NCBI GenBank assembly: GCA_003963365.1
Contig: RXJG01000004.1
Coordinates: 124,001-188,000 of the forward strand
Direction of reading: 5' to 3'
Source: Sphingobacteriales bacterium
GTDB lineage: Bacteria; Bacteroidota; Bacteroidia; Chitinophagales; Chitinophagaceae
DNA: 64,000 nucleotides
The notes beneath the pieces were generated by a model. The model was not told the origin of the DNA and did no database searches. It was given only the letters and a program-made list of their open reading frames with translations. Positions 8,338 to 49,516 of the stretch are shown one piece after another (position 1 is the stretch's first letter; each line of letters opens with the position of its first letter). The position numbers were made by a program, and so were the translations under genes.

Positions 8338-8420
8338 TGTTATTTGATTAATATCAAATGAACCAATTTTTAATTCGTCTACATTGAAACAATTATATTT
8401 TTTTAAACACTTAATGCTAT

Positions 8421-10118
8421 ATGCCCGATAACAACACATTCGATGCTATTGTAGTTGGTTCCGGTATTAGCGGCGGATGGGCTGCTAAGGAATTAACGGA
8501 GAAAGGTCTGAAAGTTTTACTGCTGGAACGTGGTAAAAACATTGAACACATCAAAGATTATAAAAACACCACCAAAGAAATTTGGGATTTTCCTCACCGC
8601 AACGGACGCACTCAACAAGAGATCAATGATTATCCTCATTTAAAAAGAGATTATCCATTGAGAGAATCCATGGCGGATGATAACTGGAGTCCCTGGGCCA
8701 GTGATAAAGACAATCCGTATACAGAGATCAAACGCTATGACTGGTTTCGTGGATATATTTTAGGTGGCCGTTCATTATTGTGGGGACGTCAGTCGTATCG
8801 TTTCAACAAATGGGATTTTGAAGCCAACGCTAAAGAAGGAATTGGTGTTGACTGGCCTGTTCGTTATGACGATATTGCCCCATGGTACAGTTATGCAGAA
8901 AAATTTGCAGGCATCCAGGGAACTAAAGAAGGATTAGAGGTATTACCTGATGGCGAGTTTCTTCCCGGTATGGAAATGAATGTAGTGGAGAAAGATGTGG
9001 CTGCAAAAATTAAAGATCATTACAAGGGCAAGCGTCACATGTTTATTGGCCGCAGTGCCAACATCACCGAACCAAAGCCTGAACAAAATCGTGTAAACTG
9101 TCAATACCGCAATCGCTGCTGGTATGGTTGTCCTTTTGGTGCTTACTTCAGCAGTAACTCGGCTACCTTACCGGTTGCAATGAAAACAGGCAACCTCACA
9201 ATTGAGGCAGATAAAATAGCTACACAAGTATTGTATGATAAAGACAAGAAGAGAGCAACAGGAGTGGAAGCATTAGATACGAACACTAATAAAACATATA
9301 CTTACAACGCAAAGATTGTTTTCCTCTGTGCTTCTACCTTTAACAGCACATGGATATTGATGAACAGTGCAACTAATATATGGCCTGATGGTTTAGGCAG
9401 CAGCAGTGGTGAACTGGGGCATAATGTAATGGATCATCATTTAAAAGTAGGTGCGGGTGGCGTTGTTGAAGGGTATGAAGACAAATATACGTTTGGAAGA
9501 AGACCTACCGGCATTTACATTCCCCGTTTCAGAAATATTTATGACGATAAAAGAGATTACCTGCGTGGCTTCGGTTACCAGGGAGGAGCAAGCCGTGGCC
9601 GTGGTGTTGAGATAGCGGAACATACTTTAGGCGCTGAATTGAAAGAAGCCTTAAGCGAACCCGGTAAATGGTATATGAGTATTGGAGGATTTGGTGAAAT
9701 TCTTCCGGATCACAGCAATAAGATTAGTTTAGATAAAAATAAGAAAGATAAATGGGGATTACCTGTTCTGGCATTTGATGTTGAGTTAAAAGAAAATGAG
9801 TTGAAGATGCGTAAAGATATGGCCAATGATGCCGCTGAAATGTTAGAGGCAGCCGGAGTAAAAGATGTTAAGGCCCGCGACACAGGGTATGCTCATGGTA
9901 TGGGTATACATGAAATGGGTACTGCCCGTATGGGACGGGATCCAAAAACATCTGTTCTCAATGGGTTTAACCAGGTATGGGATGCACCCAATGTATTTGT
10001 AACGGATGGAGCTTTTATGGCCAGCTCCAGTTGTGTAAACCCATCACTAACATATATGGCCTTTACGGCAAGAGCGGCAGATCATGCCGTGAGTGAATTG
10101 AAAAAAGGAAATCTGTAA
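8421..10118 (+). CDS. GMC family oxidoreductase, paralog 2
   Basis: A 565-residue FAD-dependent dehydrogenase. The dinucleotide fold VVGSGISGGWAAKEL is at residues 11-25, and LGGRSLLWGRQSYR marks the second GMC region. Cys227, Cys233 and Cys237 form C-x5-C-x3-C followed by PFG, a candidate iron-sulfur site. The likely catalytic pair is His497 (GIHEMGTARMG) and Asn540 (CVNPSL). It has no signal peptide. A subunit-3 gene follows at 10212 after a 93-bp gap with an inverted repeat, so these two form a plausible export pair. It ends in ELKKGNL, a tail form shared by all five GMC proteins of the window. Natural substrate unknown. Confidence 0.92.
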   Translation: MPDNNTFDAIVVGSGISGGWAAKELTEKGLKVLLLERGKNIEHIKDYKNTTKEIWDFPHRNGRTQQEINDYPHLKRDYPLRESMADDNWSPWASDKDNPYTEIKRYDWFRGYILGGRSLLWGRQSYRFNKWDFEANAKEGIGVDWPVRYDDIAPWYSYAEKFAGIQGTKEGLEVLPDGEFLPGMEMNVVEKDVAAKIKDHYKGKRHMFIGRSANITEPKPEQNRVNCQYRNRCWYGCPFGAYFSSNSATLPVAMKTGNLTIEADKIATQVLYDKDKKRATGVEALDTNTNKTYTYNAKIVFLCASTFNSTWILMNSATNIWPDGLGSSSGELGHNVMDHHLKVGAGGVVEGYEDKYTFGRRPTGIYIPRFRNIYDDKRDYLRGFGYQGGASRGRGVEIAEHTLGAELKEALSEPGKWYMSIGGFGEILPDHSNKISLDKNKKDKWGLPVLAFDVELKENELKMRKDMANDAAEMLEAAGVKDVKARDTGYAHGMGIHEMGTARMGRDPKTSVLNGFNQVWDAPNVFVTDGAFMASSSCVNPSLTYMAFTARAADHAVSELKKGNL

Positions 10119-10128
10119 TAAGTTATCA

Positions 10129-10203
10129 TGAATGTTAAATGTTGAATTTTGAATGAAAGAAATCAAAATTTTCATTTAGCATTTATAATTCAACATTCAA
10201 AAT
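10129..10203. repeat. AT-rich imperfect inverted repeat between GMC and subunit-3 genes
   Basis: A TGAATGTTAAATGTTGAAT... arm starting at about 10129 pairs imperfectly (roughly 23 of 31 positions) with the segment ending near 10200. It fills most of the gap between the GMC gene and its small-subunit gene. The same position relative to GMC and subunit 3 is occupied by a related repeat at 2789-2857. Confidence 0.5.
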
Positions 10204-10211
10204 AATTATAA

Positions 10212-10847
10212 ATGGAACGTCGTGAACTTTTAAAGATGATTGCTTTAGCTACCGGTGGTGCACTAATTGGTGGCGAATTATTTTTCAGCGGATGTAAATC
10301 AGCAGGAGGAGCGGTAACCTTTACTCCTGAAACGATTGCTTTTTTAGATGAAGTAGCAGAAACGATCATACCAGCAACGTCAACACCAGGCGCAAAAGCA
10401 GCACAGGTGGGTGAGTTTATGAAAGTGTATGTTACCGATTGCTATGATGCAGATGATCAGAAAGTTTTCCTGGAAGGGGTGAATAAACTTAATGATGCCT
10501 GCAACAAAATGCATGGCCATGATTTTATGAAAGCACCGGCCGAACATCGCAAAGCATTATTGACTGCGCTTGACAAAGAAGCAAAGGCTGTGCAGGATCA
10601 ACGCAGTAAAGCCTATTCAGAATATGAAAAAGCAGAACGGGCTAAAGGGAGTAATTTACCCATCATGGATTTTAAAAACCCCGTAGCACCACATTACTTC
10701 ACATTGATGAAGCAATTAACGCTGTTAGGTTTCTTTACTTCTAAAACAGGAGCTACAGAAACATTACGGCATATACAGGTGCCCGGTAAATATGACGGAG
10801 CATTGCCTTATAAAAAGGGTGATAAGGCCTGGGCTGATTCTATCTAG
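10212..10847 (+). CDS. Gluconate 2-dehydrogenase subunit 3 family protein (Tat lipoprotein)
   Basis: A 211-residue small subunit. MERRELLKMIALATGG is a twin-arginine signal and LFFSGC a lipobox with Cys28. The helical domain includes FLDEVAETIIPATSTPGAKAAQVG, the family hallmark, and ends in LRHIQVPGKYDGALPYKKGDKAW. Compared with the paralog at 16177-16740 it has an extra charged stretch of about 25 residues (around AVQDQRSKAYSEYEKAERAK). It sits between the first and second plus-strand GMC genes, so it could serve either or both as export partner. It has no heme or metal motif. Confidence 0.88.
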   Translation: MERRELLKMIALATGGALIGGELFFSGCKSAGGAVTFTPETIAFLDEVAETIIPATSTPGAKAAQVGEFMKVYVTDCYDADDQKVFLEGVNKLNDACNKMHGHDFMKAPAEHRKALLTALDKEAKAVQDQRSKAYSEYEKAERAKGSNLPIMDFKNPVAPHYFTLMKQLTLLGFFTSKTGATETLRHIQVPGKYDGALPYKKGDKAWADSI

Positions 10848-11006
10848 ATTATTCATCTATTCAATATTTTTTCTGGCTTGAAAGTCTTTTCAACAAATGA
10901 TAACTATCGCAAAAAATCTTCATTGAAAGACAATCAATCCCTTTTTATTTTTCTATCATCAGTTAAAAATCATTTTTAAAACAACAGGATAAAAACCAAC
11001 ATTGTT

Positions 11007-12683
11007 ATGGCAGAGAATATTTATGATGCGATTGTAATTGGCTCAGGTATCAGTGGCGGATGGGCCGCTAAAGAATTGTGTGAGAAAGGGCTCAAAACAA
11101 TTATGCTGGAACGTGGTAAAAACATTGAACACATTAAAGATTATACCGAAGCAAACAAAGAGGCATGGGATCATCCGCATCGTGGTGAAAGAACTCAGCA
11201 AATGGTTAAAGATTACCCGGTACTGAAAAGAGATTATCCGTTAAATGAACGCAATCTCGACTGGTGGGCCAGCGATAAAGATTCTCCTTATACGGAAGTA
11301 AAACGGTTTGACTGGTTCAGGGGATATCATGTAGGGGGGCGTTCACTAATGTGGGGTCGTCAAAGCTATCGCTGGAGTGATTTGTATTTTGAAGAAAATG
11401 CAAAAGATGGTATTGCTGTTGACTGGCCGGTGCGTTACAAAGACATTGAGCCATGGTACACTTACGTTGAAAAATTTGCAGGTGTCAGTGGTTCGGCCGA
11501 AGGATTACCTGAATTACCGGATAGCCATTTTTTACCTGCCATGGAAATGAATTGTGTAGAAAAAGAAGTGGCAGCAAGAGTAAAAGAACATTATAAGAAT
11601 ACCCGCAAAATAATCATTGGGCGTTGTGCTCATGCCACGGTTCCATTAAACGACCGTCAATGCCAGTTCCGTGATAAATGCTGGTTTGGTTGTCCTTATG
11701 GTGGTTACTTCAGCACACAATCAGCCACTTTACCCGCTGCTATGAAAACAGGTAATCTTACATTAAGGCCATGGTCAATCGTTACTAAAATTTTATATGA
11801 TAAGGATTCAAAGAAAGCAACCGGTGTGGAAGTGCTGGATGCAGAAACCATGAAGACTTATGAATACAAAGCAAAGATCATTTTCTTAAATGCTTCCACA
11901 CTTAATAGTGCATGGATATTGATGAACTCTGCTACAGATATATGGCCCGATGGTTTAGGCAGCAGTAGTGGTGAATTAGGACATAACTTAATGGATCATC
12001 ATTTAGGAGTAGGTGCACAGGGAATAGTAGAAGGGTTTGAAGATAAATATGTATTCGGCAGAAGAGCCAATGGTGTTTATATTCCCCGTTACCGTAATTT
12101 CTTTGGTGATAAAAGAGATTACCTGCGTGGCTTTGGTTACCAGGGTGGTGGTTCAAGAGAAGGCTGGAGCCGTGAAATACCTGAGTTGGCTATTGGTGGT
12201 GGTTTTAAAGATGCCTTAACAGAGCCGGGTCAATGGGTATTTGGCATGGGTGGTTTTGGTGAAATACTTCCTTATCATGAAAACAAAGTAACATTGGATA
12301 AAACCAAAAAAGATAAATGGGGGTTGAATGTATTAGCCTTCGATTGTGAATTGAAGGACAATGAAAAGAAGATGCGCAAGGATATGCTGAATGATGCTAA
12401 AGAAATGCTGGAAGCTGCCGGTTTGAAAAATGTACAGGCAGGGGAAGGCGATGGTACACCGGGAAGAGGTATTCACGAAATGGGAACAGCAAGAATGGGT
12501 CACGATCCAAAAACATCTGTACTCAACAAATGGAACCAGGTATGGGATGCACCAAACGTATTTGTAACCGATGGATCATTTATGACATCCGCAGCCTGTC
12601 AAAATCCATCGTTAACATACATGGCATTCACAGCAAGAGCAGCCGATTATGCAGTGAGTGAATTAAAGAAACAAAATCTGTAA
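11007..12683 (+). CDS. GMC family oxidoreductase, paralog 3
   Basis: A 558-residue FAD dehydrogenase beginning MAENIYDAIVIGSGISGGWA. Cys219, Cys225 and Cys229 form the C-x5-C-x3-C motif before PYGGYFS. His490 (GIHEMGTARMG) and Asn533 (CQNPSL) are the likely catalytic residues. It has no export signal. It is very like paralog 4, with long near-identical DNA stretches around the HEMGTARMGHDPKTSVLNK region, which points to tandem duplication. The 159-bp gap before it is AT-rich with no clear promoter box; the next GMC gene starts only 12 bp after its stop. Confidence 0.92.
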   Translation: MAENIYDAIVIGSGISGGWAAKELCEKGLKTIMLERGKNIEHIKDYTEANKEAWDHPHRGERTQQMVKDYPVLKRDYPLNERNLDWWASDKDSPYTEVKRFDWFRGYHVGGRSLMWGRQSYRWSDLYFEENAKDGIAVDWPVRYKDIEPWYTYVEKFAGVSGSAEGLPELPDSHFLPAMEMNCVEKEVAARVKEHYKNTRKIIIGRCAHATVPLNDRQCQFRDKCWFGCPYGGYFSTQSATLPAAMKTGNLTLRPWSIVTKILYDKDSKKATGVEVLDAETMKTYEYKAKIIFLNASTLNSAWILMNSATDIWPDGLGSSSGELGHNLMDHHLGVGAQGIVEGFEDKYVFGRRANGVYIPRYRNFFGDKRDYLRGFGYQGGGSREGWSREIPELAIGGGFKDALTEPGQWVFGMGGFGEILPYHENKVTLDKTKKDKWGLNVLAFDCELKDNEKKMRKDMLNDAKEMLEAAGLKNVQAGEGDGTPGRGIHEMGTARMGHDPKTSVLNKWNQVWDAPNVFVTDGSFMTSAACQNPSLTYMAFTARAADYAVSELKKQNL

Positions 12684-12695
12684 ACATATTTCATC

Positions 12696-14417
12696 ATGCC
12701 AGGCGATTCATCAAACGTACATATCAACAACAAAGCTGAAGAACAAAACAGCTACGATGCTATTGTAGTGGGCTCTGGAATCAGTGGTGGATGGGCAGCA
12801 AAAGAATTATGTGAAAAAGGATTAAAAGTATTGCTGCTTGAAAGAGGGCGACCGCTTGAGCATATTAAAGATTATGATACCGCTGATAAAGATCCCTGGG
12901 AAATAGAACATCGTGGCCGTACTACCGTAACGCAGCAAAAAGATTACCCGGTCATACATCGTGGCTGGGCCGCTTATGAACGGGTGATGAAATACTGGAC
13001 AAATGAAAAAGATTGTCCTTATGTTGAAATAAAACCCTTTACCTGGTGGCGCAGTTACCAGGTAGGCGGAAGATCTATTATGTGGGGACGCCAAAGCTAC
13101 CGCTGGAGTGATTTGGATTTTGAAGCCAATGCCAAAGAAGGAATTGCCATTGACTGGCCTGTTCGTTACAGCGATATAGCTCCCTGGTATGATTATGTAG
13201 AAAAATTTGCCGGCATTGCCGGATCAAAACAAGGATTGGAACAATTACCAGACGGACAATTTTTGAAGCCATACGAAATGAATTGTGTGGAAAAAGATGT
13301 GGCCGAAAGAATTAAGAAACATTATAATAACAGCCGTCATCTTTTTATTGGAAGAGTAGCTAATCTTACGGAACCAATACCCGGAAGAACACAATGTCAA
13401 TACAGGGATCGTTGCTGGGAAGGTTGTCCTTTCGGCGGATACTTCAGCACACAATCATCTACATTACCGGCTGCAAAATTAACCGGCAATCTTACTGTAA
13501 GGCCATGGTCTATTGTAACTAAAATTTTATACGATAAAAATTCAAAGAAGGCAACTGGTGTCGAAATATTGGATGCAGAAAATAATAAAACATACGAATA
13601 CAAATCAAAGATTGTTTTCTTAAATGCATCTGCATTAAATTCTGCCTGGGTATTATTTAACTCAGCTACAGAGATATGGCCTGAAGGTTTAGGCAGCAGT
13701 AGTGGTGAATTGGGACATAATATCATGGATCATCACTACAACTTAGGAGCCAGTGGTGATATGGAAGGTTTTGAAGACCAATACTATTACGGAAGAAGAC
13801 CAACCGGTTTTTATATTCCACGTTTCGCCAATTTATTTGGTGATAAACGAAATTACCTGCGTGGTTTTGGTTACCAGGGTGCTGCCAGCAGACAAGGATG
13901 GGGCAGGGAGGTTGCTGAATTGAATATAGGCGGTGCATTTAAAGAGGTATTAACCGAGCCCGGTGGATGGAGAATAGGAGCTACCGGTTTTGGTGAAGTA
14001 CTTCCTTACCACGAGAATAAAATTTCATTAGATAAGAATGTAAAAGATAAATGGGGACTACCGGTGCTGGCAATGGATGCCATCATTCGTGATAATGAAA
14101 TGAAGATGCGGGAAGACATCAAGAGTGAATTAAAAGCCATGTTTGAAGCTGGTGGTGCTAAGAATGTAACCACCTGGGATAATGGTCATGCATTAGGTCA
14201 CGGAATTCATGAAATGGGAACAGCAAGAATGGGCCATGATCCTAAAACATCTGTACTCAACAAATGGAACCAGGTTTGGGATGCCATGAATGTATTTGTA
14301 ACGGATGGTGCGTTTATGACGTCTTCTTCCTGTGTAAACCCATCATTAACTTATATGGCATTTACGGCCAGAGCAGCCAATCATGCGGTAGAGGAATTAA
14401 AAAAAGGCAACATTTAA
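12696..14417 (+). CDS. GMC family oxidoreductase, paralog 4
   Basis: A 573-residue FAD dehydrogenase. Before the FAD fold (IVVGSGISGGWAA) it has a hydrophilic extension of about 16 residues, MPGDSSNVHINNKAEE, shared in form with paralog 5. Cys234, Cys240 and Cys244 make the C-x5-C-x3-C motif. His505 (GIHEMGTARMG) and Asn548 (CVNPSL) are the likely active-site pair. It is tightly packed between paralogs 3 and 5 (12 and 7 bp gaps), so co-transcription is near certain. It carries no signal peptide of its own. Confidence 0.92.
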   Translation: MPGDSSNVHINNKAEEQNSYDAIVVGSGISGGWAAKELCEKGLKVLLLERGRPLEHIKDYDTADKDPWEIEHRGRTTVTQQKDYPVIHRGWAAYERVMKYWTNEKDCPYVEIKPFTWWRSYQVGGRSIMWGRQSYRWSDLDFEANAKEGIAIDWPVRYSDIAPWYDYVEKFAGIAGSKQGLEQLPDGQFLKPYEMNCVEKDVAERIKKHYNNSRHLFIGRVANLTEPIPGRTQCQYRDRCWEGCPFGGYFSTQSSTLPAAKLTGNLTVRPWSIVTKILYDKNSKKATGVEILDAENNKTYEYKSKIVFLNASALNSAWVLFNSATEIWPEGLGSSSGELGHNIMDHHYNLGASGDMEGFEDQYYYGRRPTGFYIPRFANLFGDKRNYLRGFGYQGAASRQGWGREVAELNIGGAFKEVLTEPGGWRIGATGFGEVLPYHENKISLDKNVKDKWGLPVLAMDAIIRDNEMKMREDIKSELKAMFEAGGAKNVTTWDNGHALGHGIHEMGTARMGHDPKTSVLNKWNQVWDAMNVFVTDGAFMTSSSCVNPSLTYMAFTARAANHAVEELKKGNI

Positions 14418-14424
14418 ATAATTA

Positions 14425-16158
14425 ATGCCCGGCGACTCTTTAAATATTAATATTAACAGCAAAGGTGTTCAGCAAAACAGCTTTGATGCCATTGTTATTG
14501 GCTCGGGTATTAGTGGTGGCTGGGCGGCAAAAGAATTGTGCGATCATGGATTAAAAACGCTGGTGCTGGAAAGAGGAAAAGATGTGAAGCATTTAAAAGA
14601 CTATCCCACCGCTATTAAAGATCCATGGGATTTTGCACACCGGGGAAGGATGCCTTTAGCAGATGAGAAAGAAAATCCTGTTGCCAACCGGTGTTATGCA
14701 TATGGTGAAGCTACGCAACATTTTTTTGTAAAGGATAATGAACATCCTTATATACAGGAGAAACCATTTGACTGGATAAGAGGTTACCAGGTAGGAGGTA
14801 AATCATTATTATGGGCAAGAGCCACACAACGGTGGAGTCGTTTTGACTTTGAAGGCCCTGCCCGGGATGGTTTTGCCATAGACTGGCCCATCCGTTATGA
14901 AGATATTGCTCCGTGGTACAGTCATACAGAAATATTTGCCGGTATCAGTGGTAATAAAGATGGATTAGAGACACTGCCCGACGGAGAATTTCTCCCGGCA
15001 TGGGAATTAAATTGTGTGGAGAAAGATATTCAGCAAAAGATTAATGCACAATATAAAGACAGAAGAGCAATAACAGGAAGATGTGCTCATCTTACAAGGC
15101 CCAATCCTATTCACTTACAACAGGGAAGAGGGCAATGCCAGGCCAGAACATTATGTGAAAGAGGTTGCCCTTTTGGTGGTTATTTCAGTTCCAATTCATC
15201 AACCCTGCCCTGGGCTGAAAAAACCGGTAACCTAACGTTACGACCTGACTCAGTAGTTCATTCTATTATTTATAATGAACAAAAAGGGAAAGCTACGGGA
15301 GTAAGAGTAATTGATGCACATACCAAACAGGTAACAGAATATTTTGCTAAAATCATTTTTGTAAATGCAGCCTGTTTAAACTCTAATCTTATTTTATTGA
15401 ACTCAACTTCTAACCGTTTCCCCAATGGATTGGGAAACGATAGTGGACTGCTGGGAAAATATATTTGCTTTCATAATTACCGTGGTTCTATAACAGCATC
15501 AGTGGAAGGTTTTGAGGACAAATATTACTACGGACGTAAACCTACCGGCGTTATGCTTCCTAATTTCAGGAATGTGTACAGGCAGGAGACGGATTTTTTA
15601 AGAGGATACACTGTTCACTTTAGTGCAGGAAGAGGAAGAGCTTCTGTGAAAAATGGAGCGGCAGAGATTGGAGCTGGATATAAAGATGCCATTTGTGAAC
15701 CGGGAGGTTGGGGAGTATATATGATGATGCAGGGAGAAACGATTCCTAAAGAAGCAAATCATGTACGGTTGAGTAAGGATAAAAAAGATGATTGGGGAAT
15801 ACCTCAACTGATTACTTCGGTTGATTATGACGAAAATGATGAGAAGGTATTAAAAGATTTTTTTGAGCAGGGGAAAGAAATGTTAGAAAAAGCCGCATGT
15901 AAAAATATAGTGCTGAATGACAGTAAACAGGCGCCGGGTTTGGATATACATGAAATGGGAGGAGTTAGAATGGGGAAAGATGCTAAAACATCTTTACTTA
16001 ATAAGTGGAACCAGTTTCATACCTGTTCAAACGTATTTGTAACGGATGGGGCTTGCATGGTTTCAACAGCAACGCAAAACCCTTCACTCACCTTTATGGC
16101 CTTAACCGCCAGAGCGGCAAATCATGCAGTGGAGGAATTAAAAAAAGGTAATATTTAA
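14425..16158 (+). CDS. GMC family oxidoreductase, paralog 5 (diverged)
   Basis: A 577-residue FAD dehydrogenase with the MPGDS-type N-terminal extension and the VIGSGISGGWAA fold. Cys238, Cys244 and Cys248 keep the C-x5-C-x3-C spacing. His509 and Asn552 are kept, but the flanks differ: DIHEMGGVRMGKD instead of GIHEMGTARMGxD, and TQNPSLTFMAL instead of CVNPSLTYMAF. LGGRSxxWGRQSYR is changed to VGGKSLLWARATQR. The substrate pocket is therefore probably different from paralogs 2-4. A subunit-3 gene follows 18 bp on. Confidence 0.9.
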   Translation: MPGDSLNININSKGVQQNSFDAIVIGSGISGGWAAKELCDHGLKTLVLERGKDVKHLKDYPTAIKDPWDFAHRGRMPLADEKENPVANRCYAYGEATQHFFVKDNEHPYIQEKPFDWIRGYQVGGKSLLWARATQRWSRFDFEGPARDGFAIDWPIRYEDIAPWYSHTEIFAGISGNKDGLETLPDGEFLPAWELNCVEKDIQQKINAQYKDRRAITGRCAHLTRPNPIHLQQGRGQCQARTLCERGCPFGGYFSSNSSTLPWAEKTGNLTLRPDSVVHSIIYNEQKGKATGVRVIDAHTKQVTEYFAKIIFVNAACLNSNLILLNSTSNRFPNGLGNDSGLLGKYICFHNYRGSITASVEGFEDKYYYGRKPTGVMLPNFRNVYRQETDFLRGYTVHFSAGRGRASVKNGAAEIGAGYKDAICEPGGWGVYMMMQGETIPKEANHVRLSKDKKDDWGIPQLITSVDYDENDEKVLKDFFEQGKEMLEKAACKNIVLNDSKQAPGLDIHEMGGVRMGKDAKTSLLNKWNQFHTCSNVFVTDGACMVSTATQNPSLTFMALTARAANHAVEELKKGNI

Positions 16159-16176
16159 AAATATAAAAACTTCAAT

Positions 16177-16740
16177 ATGGACAGAAGAGAGCTTTTAAAA
16201 ATGATTGCGTTGGCCACCGGCAGTACCATCATTGGTGGTGAATTGCTGCTGAGTGGTTGTAAGTCCGGCTCATCAGGTGTTACATCGCTGGCTTCAGTAG
16301 ATATAGCATTGCTGGATGAAATTGCCGAAACCATTCTTCCTAAAACCAACACACCGGGTGCCAAAGACGCAGAAGTAGGTAAGTTTATGAAGCTGATGGT
16401 GACCGATTGTTACGAAGAAAAAGATCAAAAAACTTTTGTGGAAGGATTAGGCAAACTGGATGAGGCATGCAATAAAATGCACAGCACCAGTTTCATCAAA
16501 GCAACACCTCAGCAAAGAAATGATTTGCTGGTGAGTATTGACAAAGAAGCCAAACAATACAATCAAAAAAAGAAAGAAGGTGATCCAAATCATTATTTCA
16601 CCATGATGAAGCAACTAACTTTACTGGGCTTCTTTACCTCTAAACCCGGAGCTACACAAGCATTACGGTATATAGCGGTGCCCGGAAGATATGACGGCTG
16701 TGTGCCATATACAAAAGGTGAAAAAGCCTGGGCAACTTAA
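16177..16740 (+). CDS. Gluconate 2-dehydrogenase subunit 3 family protein (Tat lipoprotein)
   Basis: A 187-residue small subunit with MDRRELLKMIALATGS (twin arginine) and LLLSGC lipobox at Cys28. The domain includes LLDEIAETILPKTNTPGAKDAEVG and ends LRYIAVPGRYDGCVPYTKGEKAW. It lacks the charged insert of the 10212-10847 paralog and is otherwise close to it. It directly follows the three tightly packed GMC genes and is their most likely shared Tat carrier. No redox cofactor motif is seen. Confidence 0.88.
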   Translation: MDRRELLKMIALATGSTIIGGELLLSGCKSGSSGVTSLASVDIALLDEIAETILPKTNTPGAKDAEVGKFMKLMVTDCYEEKDQKTFVEGLGKLDEACNKMHSTSFIKATPQQRNDLLVSIDKEAKQYNQKKKEGDPNHYFTMMKQLTLLGFFTSKPGATQALRYIAVPGRYDGCVPYTKGEKAWAT

Positions 16741-45715: not shown

Positions 45716-46561
45716 TCAACTGTATTGATAATATCCTTTGCCCGTCTTCCTTCCTAATTCACCTTTGGCTACTTTTTCCTGTTGAATGGGAGAGGGTTTA
45801 AAACGCTCTATATGATTAAAGGCATCGTACAACGACTGGCTTACCGCCAAATTGATGTCGTTGCCAATTAAATCCATCAATTTGAAAGGTCCCATTTTAA
45901 AACCGGATGTTTCCATCAGTTTATCAACGGTAGCAAAATCAGCTAAGCCTTCTTCCACCAGTTTAAATGCTTCGAGATAATAATGACGGGCTACCCGGTT
46001 CACGATAAAGCCCGGCGCATCTTTACACATTACGGGAGTTTTGCCCATTCGTTCGCAAAGCTCATATACCTGTTGCGCAAAAGCTTCATGCGTTAATTCT
46101 CCTTTTACTACTTCCACCAGTTTCATAATAGTGGCAGGATTAAAGAAATGCATACCCACTAACCGCTGCGGATGCGCTACATTTTTTTGAATATCGGTAA
46201 TGGAAAGCGAAGAAGTGTTGGAAGCAAAGATGGTGTTACTATGATTGAGTTCAGCCAGCTGATTGAATAATGAAACCTTCGCTTCTGTTTTTTCTATGAT
46301 GGCTTCAATAATAACATCGGCCACGCAATGGTTTATATCACCGGTGAATTGAAAGCGGTTAAGAATAGCTTCTTTATTGGCTGCTGATATTTTTTCTTTC
46401 TCCACTAATGATTGCAGGTTCTTTTCAATGGAGGCTTTTGCTTTTTCCAGCACTACTGTATTTACCTCAAACAAAATGGTGGTAAAGCCTGCCTGTGCAG
46501 CTGCTTGTGCAATACCGCTGCCCATTGTTCCGGCGCCACAGATGCAGATTGTTTGAACCAT
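45716..46561 (-). CDS. 3-hydroxyacyl-CoA (3-hydroxybutyryl-CoA) dehydrogenase
   Basis: A 281-residue NAD-dependent dehydrogenase of short-chain 3-hydroxyacyl-CoA. ICGAGTMGSGIAQAAAQAG is the NAD fold, FASNTSSLSIT and VGMHFFNPATIMKLVEVV hold the catalytic Ser/His region, and APGFIVNRVARHYYLEA with LMDLIGNDINLAV the C-terminal dimer domain. The single-domain length fits Hbd/PaaH. It starts 4 bp after the end of the HipA-like module, which is an odd partner and may have been inserted upstream of it. Confidence 0.92.
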   Translation of the reverse strand: MVQTICICGAGTMGSGIAQAAAQAGFTTILFEVNTVVLEKAKASIEKNLQSLVEKEKISAANKEAILNRFQFTGDINHCVADVIIEAIIEKTEAKVSLFNQLAELNHSNTIFASNTSSLSITDIQKNVAHPQRLVGMHFFNPATIMKLVEVVKGELTHEAFAQQVYELCERMGKTPVMCKDAPGFIVNRVARHYYLEAFKLVEEGLADFATVDKLMETSGFKMGPFKLMDLIGNDINLAVSQSLYDAFNHIERFKPSPIQQEKVAKGELGRKTGKGYYQYS

Positions 46562-46565
46562 GAAA

Positions 46566-47450
46566 TTATGCTATGGTTTTTTCAAACTCAGAGAACTTAG
46601 AATAATTTTTCTCTTCCAGATTGTCGGCTATATTCGATAGCTCTTCGGGGTGCTTAATAGAAAATAAATCGGTTTTGTGGAAAGCGACTTTTTCAAAAAT
46701 CTTGTGTTGCGGAGAATTTAAGCTTGGTTCTTCCGCAATAATAATATAAGAGCCCTTGCCTGTACTATTTAAATATTTTTTAGAAAACTCTTTCAAGGCA
46801 ATTGTCAATACCTCATATTCATATAAATGTTTCGAAATTGTCTCTTCGTGTGTGTTAAAATCAATTACTTGCCCAACCAATAGAGCTCCGTTTTTGGCAA
46901 TGAGCGTTACTTCACAAGGAGAATATATCCCTTCAATTTTTTCTGGCTTTAGTTGATAATGTATATCTGCTTTCTTTTTGAAAACTTCCTTTTTTAATTG
47001 TTTATTTACTGTGCTTATAATGCTATGTTTAGGAGTTGATTTTTTTTCTCCATCTTCACCCCATTCACCTATGAATTGCTTGAAAAGTTCTTTAAATGTT
47101 TTTTTATCAATACTTGAAGCTATGGATTTAGGTTCACTAAATTGAATTAACCCTTTACTGTATTTGTTTAGATACTTTATGTATTCGATATTAAATATAG
47201 ATTTTTGAATAAATAGAGAGTTGTTTTTATTGCTTTTAATTGTTTCGTCAATTTTATTTTGGATTAAGTCGAATGTTAATTCTGCATGTTTAACAGCTTC
47301 AAGGCTAGCTAATTTATTTACGACCTTTAATTTATTTTGAGATACATGAAAATGAACGAATTTATCATTAAACGCAAGTAGCCCTATTGCAACTTTTTCT
47401 GCTGCAAGGGAGTTCGTTTGAATGTATAATATCGAAATATAAGATTTCAT
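46566..47450 (-). CDS. Hypothetical protein coupled to a HipA-like kinase
   Basis: A 294-residue soluble protein of no recognised function. It opens MKSYISILYIQTNSLAAEKVAIGLLAFNDK, which by position and style recalls the DUF3037 proteins often encoded beside HipA_2-type kinases (an N-terminal strand, then a 'new data' loop), but the match is weak. The middle is Lys-rich and the C-terminal half has VTLIAKNGALLVGQVIDFN and SYIIIAEEPSL. Its ATG overlaps the kinase stop as TAATG, so the two are translationally coupled. The DNA is visibly AT-richer than its neighbours. Confidence 0.6.
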   Translation of the reverse strand: MKSYISILYIQTNSLAAEKVAIGLLAFNDKFVHFHVSQNKLKVVNKLASLEAVKHAELTFDLIQNKIDETIKSNKNNSLFIQKSIFNIEYIKYLNKYSKGLIQFSEPKSIASSIDKKTFKELFKQFIGEWGEDGEKKSTPKHSIISTVNKQLKKEVFKKKADIHYQLKPEKIEGIYSPCEVTLIAKNGALLVGQVIDFNTHEETISKHLYEYEVLTIALKEFSKKYLNSTGKGSYIIIAEEPSLNSPQHKIFEKVAFHKTDLFSIKHPEELSNIADNLEEKNYSKFSEFEKTIA

Positions 47451-48301
47451 TATATCTTAAATGTCTTTTTTAAAATGTTTACAGCTTCTAAATTTAATTT
47501 TTGAATTCTAATGGGTGATAGTAGAAAACCAATAATCCTTTCCTTTAAACCTGCCTGAACTTGCCATTCTGCTGGTATTTGTTTAAAAACATCTTCGATA
47601 ATATCTTTAATTTCAGGCTCGGAGTCTTTAATCCTGCTAACAAATTCCTTCACAATATACAAACGTTCAGCCTTAGTTAAATGTTTTACAAAACTTTTAA
47701 AAAATATACTTGTTATTAGCTTTTTGTATGGAGAAACCTCTGAATTTGGGTTGAAAATATTAAGTTCTTCTAATCCACCGAAAGTAAAAGCATGGTCAAA
47801 GGCATAGATTTTTTTACGGTCATTTTCAAGATGGGTTAATAAATTGTAGTTGCCTTCTTTTCTGTCTTTATTATCTACCCACAAATCAAAAAGAGCTATT
47901 CTTATTAAATCTTGTTTGTTAGAATACTTATTAAACTCTTTCTTTCGATTTATTATTTCAGTATCTCTTAATAGGTCAGCATCAATTATTTCTTTTGATG
48001 CGAAACATTGGCTTCCGGGTAATGCTTTGCGCCTGTTTCTTTTTAATGATTTCACATCGTAGGAATCTTTATTTAAGGTGGCAATGGCAATTTCGGGTGT
48101 CGGAATTTCGAAATGCTGTAGTAATCTTGAACAAACTATTTCATATACAAGACAGTGTATTTCTAATTTATTGAAACTCAACCCGGAAAGGTATTTTAAA
48201 TAGTAATTGCAACCATCAGAACACAAGAAAAACATCGGGCTATGCCCATCAGTAGGGAGTTCGTCTCTGAAATATGTAGTGTTAAGTCTTTTTATTTGCA
48301 A
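47450..48301 (-). CDS. HipA-like kinase domain protein
   Basis: A 283-residue protein resembling the HipA_2 family of standalone HipA-type kinases. GCNYYLKYLSGL is a beta-strand with the likely nucleotide-binding Lys. The catalytic loop is DLWVDNKDRKEGNYNLL (Asp143/Asp146, Asn151), and the metal Asp169 is in YAFDHAFTFG. It lacks the HipB antitoxin partner and the N-terminal HipA module. The partner is the downstream gene starting in its stop codon. Role in toxin-antitoxin, phage defence or signalling is open. The pair is AT-rich and sits between hbd and pheS. Confidence 0.7.
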   Translation of the reverse strand: MQIKRLNTTYFRDELPTDGHSPMFFLCSDGCNYYLKYLSGLSFNKLEIHCLVYEIVCSRLLQHFEIPTPEIAIATLNKDSYDVKSLKRNRRKALPGSQCFASKEIIDADLLRDTEIINRKKEFNKYSNKQDLIRIALFDLWVDNKDRKEGNYNLLTHLENDRKKIYAFDHAFTFGGLEELNIFNPNSEVSPYKKLITSIFFKSFVKHLTKAERLYIVKEFVSRIKDSEPEIKDIIEDVFKQIPAEWQVQAGLKERIIGFLLSPIRIQKLNLEAVNILKKTFKI

Positions 48302-48363
48302 TTTGAGAAGGCTGTTATACTCAAATATAAAAATCTAATAGCATAATTGAACAAACAAATTAA

Positions 48364-48420
48364 GACCCAGAAGTGTGCGACGCAACCAAAGCTTAATAGT
48401 AGTAATGCAGCTAAGTACAT
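48364..48420 (+). repeat. Dispersed intergenic repeat, copy B
   Basis: Shares TGTGCGACGCAACC (48374-48387) and about 55 aligned bases with 434-490 in the opposite orientation. It fills much of the 48302-48484 gap between the HipA-like gene and pheS. The rest of the gap (to 48484) also looks repeat-like, with a CGGCAGATTCC...GTCGGAATGA segment. Confidence 0.55.
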
Positions 48421-48484
48421 CATTCATCCAATTACAAAACATCGGCAGATTCCTCCTTACGTCGGAATGATGATTACTATTGAG

Positions 48485-49516
48485 CTACGTTGCACTGGTA
48501 AACTGCTTCAGAAATCTTACATCATTTTCACTGAACAAACGGATGTCGTTAATGCCATACTTTAATAAAGCTGGCCGCTCCACACCCATACCAAAGGCAA
48601 AGCCGGTGTATTTGTTACTGTCGATGCCACAATTCTCCAGCACTTTCGGATGCACCATACCGCAACCTAATATTTCCACCCAGCCGGTGTGTTTGCAAAT
48701 ATTACAACCCTCACCACCGCAAATGAAACAGCTTACATCCATCTCAGCACTTGGCTCGGTGAATGGAAAATAAGAAGGACGGAAACGAACTTTTACATCC
48801 TTGCCATACATCTCCTGCACAAAGAAGTACAATGTTTGTTTTAAATCTGCGAAAGAAACATTTTCATCAATGTATAAACCTTCCACCTGGTGAAAGTAAC
48901 AGTGACTTCTTGCACTGATAGTTTCGTTGCGATACACCCGACCGGGACAAACAATACGAATAGGCAACTTGCCTTTTTCCATTTCCCTTATTTGAATATT
49001 GCTGGTATGTGTACGTAATAACCAATCTGGATTCGTGTGGATGTAAAAAGTATCCTGCATATCCCGGGCAGGATGATTTTCATCTAAGTTGAGTGCACCG
49101 AAATTGTGCCAGTCATCTTCTATTTCCGGACCTTCAGCCACGGCAAAACCGAGGCGTTGGAAAATAGAAACAATATGATTTCGCATTAGACTGATAGGGT
49201 GGCGGCTGCCAACTGCGATAGGATCGCCGGGAAGCGTTAAGTCAATATCATTACCTGTTGTCTCTTGCCCGTTGCCTGTTGAACTTTTCCACTCTTCATA
49301 TTTGGCTTCCGCAAATTGTTTGAACTCGTTTAATACCTGGCCGAATTGTTTCTTCTGCTCATTCGCCACATTTTTCATCTCTCCCATCAGGGCTTTTACA
49401 ATGCCTTTGGTGCCGAGAAATTTAATGCGGTATTCTTCCAATTCTTTAGCTCCTTTTATAGCTAATGCCTCAATTTCTTGTTTGTAAGATTCTATTTGTT
49501 CCAAAACCTTTTCCAT
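48485..49516 (-). CDS. pheS: Phenylalanine--tRNA ligase alpha subunit
   Basis: A 343-residue class II tRNA synthetase subunit. The N-terminal coiled-coil (about 1-90) binds tRNA; DLTLPGDPIAVGSRHPISL precedes motif 1, and motif 2 is LRTHTSNIQIREME with VYRNETISARSHCYFHQVEGL. Motif 3 is FAFGMGVERPALLKYGI. ASAEM-type FTEPSAEMDVSCFICGG contains a small Cys cluster. Length and motifs are normal. Its -7 box is just 6 bp upstream of the ATG. Confidence 0.95.
   Translation of the reverse strand: MEKVLEQIESYKQEIEALAIKGAKELEEYRIKFLGTKGIVKALMGEMKNVANEQKKQFGQVLNEFKQFAEAKYEEWKSSTGNGQETTGNDIDLTLPGDPIAVGSRHPISLMRNHIVSIFQRLGFAVAEGPEIEDDWHNFGALNLDENHPARDMQDTFYIHTNPDWLLRTHTSNIQIREMEKGKLPIRIVCPGRVYRNETISARSHCYFHQVEGLYIDENVSFADLKQTLYFFVQEMYGKDVKVRFRPSYFPFTEPSAEMDVSCFICGGEGCNICKHTGWVEILGCGMVHPKVLENCGIDSNKYTGFAFGMGVERPALLKYGINDIRLFSENDVRFLKQFTSAT

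Follow-up and report, generated by a model that had tools for sequence, protein, structure and literature searches.

An AT-rich HipA-type kinase and DUF3037 partner, probably a divergent toxin–antitoxin defence module, at a chromosomal site held by ParDE in sister species

Between the housekeeping genes pheS and hbd, the window (the whole 64-kb stretch of Sphingobacteriales DNA that was analysed) carries two genes, a HipA-type kinase followed by its partner, which stand alone with no visible defence island (Table 1). A sequence-only reading of this DNA had placed an AT-rich two-gene module with TAATG coupling here, and it was right on each count: both ORFs lie where it put them, base 47450 is common to the two (ATATAATGAAA, i.e. 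TAATG, a 1-nt overlap), and the kinase (31.2% GC) and the partner (30.2%) have the two lowest GC contents among the 45 non-overlapping ORFs of at least 200 aa within the window, the next being at 35.4%. The gap from pheS to the kinase is 183 nt. Since a TAnnTTTG element, the shape taken by the -7 promoter box in Bacteroidota, is found 5' of the kinase, the module is probably transcribed from a promoter of its own, TAnnTTTG occurring in the window at a background of 0.44 per kb per strand. The start of hbd lies so close behind the partner stop that co-transcription of hbd with the module is likely; hbd may also depend on the module, as had been proposed, and a toxin–antitoxin (TA) pair (ParDE) already preceded this gene in the sister species. 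No retron was found in the module.

Table 1. Features of the kinase/partner module and its flanks (window coordinates)
Feature	Coordinates	Strand	Details
hbd, 3-hydroxyacyl-CoA dehydrogenase	45716..46561	-	PF02737, PF00725; 4 nt 3' of the module
Replaced segment	46564..48370	.	No DNA match to sister species G001 (ParDE there); blastn homology stops at 46563 and restarts at 48371
Partner gene	46566..47450	-	294 aa, ATG start; divergent DUF3037 (proposed antitoxin/regulator)
Partner C-terminal domain	46599..47027	-	Residues 142-284; predicted PD-(D/E)XK-nuclease-like (AF2 model and VIA)
Partner N-terminal domain	47073..47450	-	Residues 1-126; putative DUF3037 (PF11236 match 18-127)
Kinase gene	47450..48301	-	283 aa, TTG start; HipA_2-type atypical Ser/Thr kinase (proposed toxin/effector)
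Metal-binding motif FDHAF	47780..47797	-	D169 invariant (57 homologues)
Catalytic loop	47837..47893	-	LFDLWVDNKDRKEGNYNLL, residues 137-155; L137, F138, D139, W141, N144, D146, R147 and N153 invariant, N151 98% (57 homologues)
Candidate -7 promoter element	48322..48329	-	TATATTTG (TAnnTTTG); begins 28 nt ahead of the TTG start
Dispersed intergenic repeat	48365..48487	.	16 matches in own genome; beside pheS in G001 too
pheS, upstream flank	48485..49516	-	TIGR00468

The upstream protein matches the Pfam family HipA_2 (PF20613) with an E-value of 6.3e-18 and 65.4 bits, above the curated cut-off of 27, and the PADLOC model PDC-M66A with an E-value of 1.2e-8. The PDC-M66A model matches all 57 of the aligned kinases, and in a profile-profile comparison the kinase family matches the canonical PDC-M66A kinases with an E-value of 1.6e-19 (probability 99%). 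Both DNKDRKEGN and FDHAF are present, and K36 and E54 are invariant in the 57 homologues, as are most of the residues listed for the catalytic loop and metal-binding motif in Table 1. The structural model (pLDDT 92.1, pTM 0.92) is a confident kinase fold with the catalytic Lys, Glu, Asp, Asn and Asp, and it resembles the atypical kinases PI4KIIalpha, CotH, CtkA, Fam20, HipT and HipA, with VIA Z-scores of 15.6 to PI4KIIalpha and CotH, 12.4 to HipT (8ezr) and 12.3 to HipA (3tpb). As its motifs had led the sequence-only reading to propose, the upstream gene encodes an atypical kinase of the HipA type, and its catalytic residues are intact. The absence of HipB and of the HipA N-domain, claimed in the same place, is also confirmed: the kinase lacks the HipA N-terminal subdomain, and the operon contains no gene for an HTH antitoxin HipB or for HipS, being flanked only by pheS upstream and hbd downstream.

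The downstream protein had been described as unrecognised, which no longer holds. Against PF11236 (DUF3037) it scores below the cut-off (E-value 0.027; 15.1 bits vs 22.6), the match covering the putative N-terminal domain, and the PDC-M66B model does not match it; only three of the 59 members of its family reach an E-value of 0.01 in PF11236 or PDC-M66B. The profile of the partner family, in comparison with that of the canonical PDC-M66B proteins (those at L134, L136 and L140, from loci found with the DUF3037 model in other Bacteroidota), gives an E-value of 1e-10 over 257 columns, with a probability of 97%, and there are bridging members, namely L141, L142 and L137, all above the PF11236 cut-off, of which L141 and L137 also match PDC-M66B. 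Because of this profile-profile match and these bridging members, we read the failure of the single models as remote homology and not as absence: judged by its sequence relationships, the partner is a divergent DUF3037 protein and a remote homologue of the PDC-M66B partners. For the N-terminal domain, a profile comparison with a short DUF3037 family described below gives an E-value of 4e-4 and a probability of 35%.

The AF2 model of the partner (pLDDT 89.6, pTM 0.61) suggests that a second domain follows. Foldseek with the whole model returned nothing significant (best E-value 0.07). With residues 142-284 the best VIA matches were PspGI (Z 8.4) and Can2 (Z 7.9), followed by BsoBI, EndoMS, Card1 and many nucleases of the same fold; Z-scores near 8 and so coherent a list of matches provide moderate evidence for a nuclease-like fold. 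The conserved residues of this domain are N187, E241 and P242. The D/E-x-K signature is not conserved, position 194 being Q in 63%, K in 12% and E in 12%, and a conserved K two residues on is absent. This does not fit an active PD-(D/E)XK nuclease, and the domain looks like an inactive relative of these enzymes that perhaps binds nucleic acid. No Pfam match to DUF1829 was found at an E-value of 0.01 in the 59 partner-family members, nor in the canonical M66B partners at L134, L136 and L140.

When each species was represented by a single genome, a scan for homologues yielded 68 loci, almost exclusively in Bacteroidota, and viral contigs added three more; there was no kinase match in phage records, and one distant plasmid kinase (Niallia) had no recognisable partner. 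Identity to the nearest of the homologues found is 32-37%. The kinase branch of the module forms one clade of 62 members (support 0.977), apart from the canonical PDC-M66 kinases and from those of the short HipA_2/DUF3037 pairs. In all 70 readable loci (L081, which ends at a contig edge, is left out of this count) the partner lies directly 3' of the kinase, and in most of them the genes either overlap by 1-4 nt or are no more than about 12 nt apart. Distances among the kinases and among the partners are correlated (r 0.94, equalled in 0 of 2000 permutations), a correlation that would also come from shared descent alone. At four loci (L035, L046, L098 and L099) the kinase is interrupted or truncated and the partner intact; some of these lesions may stem from misassembly of metagenome bins. 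The reverse, an intact kinase without the partner N-domain, was not found among the readable loci. Four apparent orphan kinases (L066, L091, L093 and L096) proved to be artefacts of start-codon choice, the partner being present in each. At L064 (9953-11079) an intact kinase is accompanied by a partner consisting of the N-terminal domain only, with an unrelated gene following at once.

In many members of the family pheS, hbd and the next gene, which encodes a sugar-epimerase-like SDR, are neighbours, and the interval between pheS and hbd is 6 to about 250 nt or holds an inverted gene for a membrane-protein-like product; often it is short and empty. Both sister species (G001 and G002) carry a ParDE-like pair in this interval, with ParE (PF05016) recognised at E-values of 3e-15 and 9e-14, respectively; no ParE was found in the genome studied here. 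Homology to G001 ends 2 nt upstream of the hbd start and restarts where the dispersed repeat ends. DNA identity across hbd and the SDR gene that follows it is 88.4% to G001 and 83.5% to G002, with 81.9% between G001 and G002, and this order indicates that G002 is the outgroup, that ParDE is the older occupant and that the lineage studied here exchanged ParDE for the kinase module. The module was acquired horizontally; the pair occurs patchily, in three of 59 relatives, and homologues lie elsewhere in the genome, in G025, for example, beside mnmE. In G001 the ParDE pair (L021, about 800-870 and 1440-1510) is flanked by a direct duplication, some 50-60 nt long, that comprises the leader and start of hbd (CTTTCAATCCCTCAAATCCAATAAATCATG...) and may be left over from the insertion of ParDE.

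The sequence-only reading had also associated the module with a dispersed repeat. The adjacency stands; the link itself was rejected, as the repeat flanks pheS in G001 as well, and because of that position it must predate the module and is no part of it. The repeat is about 100 nt long with a core of TCATTCCGACGTAAGGAGGAATC...GGTTGCGTCGCAC, and another copy lies at 430-489.

The kind of system to which the pair belongs is already known, and the pair is a new, divergent member of it. DS-6, or HipAD, found with DefensePredictor, consists of a HipA-type kinase (DS-6A) and a DUF3037-DUF1829 protein (DS-6B); it is anti-phage, its defence depends on the residue of the kinase that is predicted to be catalytic, and predictions have both proteins interacting with each other and contacting DNA (PMC13092281). 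The module shares with it the two genes, a kinase and a DUF3037 partner, and the lack of HipB, but as far as can be judged from the description of DS-6 it differs in a partner that falls below the Pfam DUF3037 cut-off and has no DUF1829 match. In Retron-Sda1 a HipA/DUF3037 pair includes a kinase required for defence, and deletion of its DUF3037 gene is toxic independently of the retron (PMC12548924). This pair and PADLOC PDC-M66 have the gene order and tight coupling seen here, with sizes of about 270-283 and 281-294 aa and homology over most of the length of both proteins, whereas our kinase falls in a separate clade and our partner is missed by the M66B model. The short HipA_2 and DUF3037 pair of Bacteroidota likewise has a kinase followed by a DUF3037 protein, with overlapping genes, but its partner is the N-domain only and matches PF11236 strongly (E-value about 1e-47). 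With HipBA and HipBST (PMC8262856) the module shares the atypical kinase fold; it differs in having no HipB, HipS, HIRAN or Stl-like gene, an unrelated partner, and a kinase gene that comes first and lacks the HipA N-subdomain. That survey, which covers 10 organisations of Hip kinases, is not among the papers mentioning DUF3037.

In view of the published results on DS-6/HipAD and Retron-Sda1, the pair is most likely a two-gene TA defence system of the type that joins a HipA kinase to a DUF3037 protein (HipAD, i.e. DS-6; PADLOC PDC-M66), from a divergent Bacteroidota branch, a reading to which we give a probability of roughly 0.7. A TA or defence module was among the earlier proposals, and the Pfam and PADLOC matches, the fold, the strict DUF3037-type pairing, the patchiness and the experiments published on the same kind all speak for it. 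Toxicity, neutralisation and phage defence would then be as in these relatives: the kinase would be the toxic effector, bound and neutralised by the co-translated DUF3037 partner; phage infection would disturb the pair and free the kinase, which would phosphorylate a target, so that growth stops and infection is aborted. One may tentatively go further and view the partner as a two-domain switch, in which the DUF3037 N-domain inhibits the kinase and the inactive nuclease-fold C-domain detects phage or damaged nucleic acid, thereby freeing the kinase, the short family being an inhibitor without a sensor.

Alternatively, the module may be a genuine kinase TA pair that persists through addiction or because it has a stabilising effect, and that plays no real part in phage defence. 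The takeover of ParDE's site is what selfish exchange would predict, and the module stands by itself; the earlier suggestion of looking for the pair in defence islands yielded no demonstrable enrichment around the homologues, PADLOC families being equally often next door and at least five genes away in a comparison confined to the surroundings of the homologues. Nevertheless, two independently studied relatives of the same kind do defend against phage, and we consider a pure addiction element unlikely. Still less probable is that the two proteins make up a single defence complex and that the partner serves in it not as a classical antitoxin but as sensor or activator, perhaps by recognising nucleic acid with its nuclease-like C-domain. 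The predicted PD-(D/E)XK-like fold of that domain without a catalytic motif would suit such a role, as would the fact that in the short DUF3037 family and at L064 the N-domain alone accompanies the kinase, making the C-domain an extra module, yet the toxicity of DUF3037 loss in Retron-Sda1 fits inhibition and not activation. A signalling kinase and its regulator in a housekeeping role, tied to pheS or to fatty-acid metabolism, could be suspected from the position between pheS and hbd and the closeness of the hbd start, but this is very improbable and a housekeeping operon is rejected by the distribution, since the module is absent from both sister species, where the site holds ParDE, and from most relatives, where it often holds nothing, while homologues occur in unrelated places such as beside mnmE.

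As a TA defence module, the pair extends a newly validated anti-phage TA kind to a large and divergent branch of the Bacteroidota. Detection models see this branch by half, finding the kinase and missing the partner, which is too divergent for the DUF3037 and PADLOC models. The exchange at the pheS-hbd site, new here, is a clean example, for which the sister species serve as controls, of one TA system taking the place of another in the same chromosomal position. How such pairs might sense infection is a question for which the inactive nuclease domain predicted in the partner supplies a testable idea.

Several further observations were made. At L098 and L099 (Bacteroidetes bins UR.bin82 and Paludibacter sp. 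RC263) the kinases share the position of a frameshift, and both partners are intact. At L018/L040 (Chitinophagaceae UBA3961) a homologous pair lies directly 3' of mnmE, again between core genes. For the short HipA_2/DUF3037 pair (L103-L132), 36 of the 247 genomes of Bacteroidota gave strong DUF3037 matches (E-value below 1e-35); its partner is a single domain of about 131 aa, and a kinase adjoins it in all 30 loci fetched. On a plasmid of Tritonibacter mobilis (L147, 3144-5985) a divergent HipA-type kinase and a DUF3037-like gene are followed directly by a reverse transcriptase, possibly a retron association like that of Retron-Sda1. Elsewhere in the window, at 8400-16200, there are four diverged tandem copies of one gene, spaced about 1.73-2.57 kb apart and 64-77% identical; a peptide from this repeat (D8), read by eye, resembles GMC oxidoreductases.
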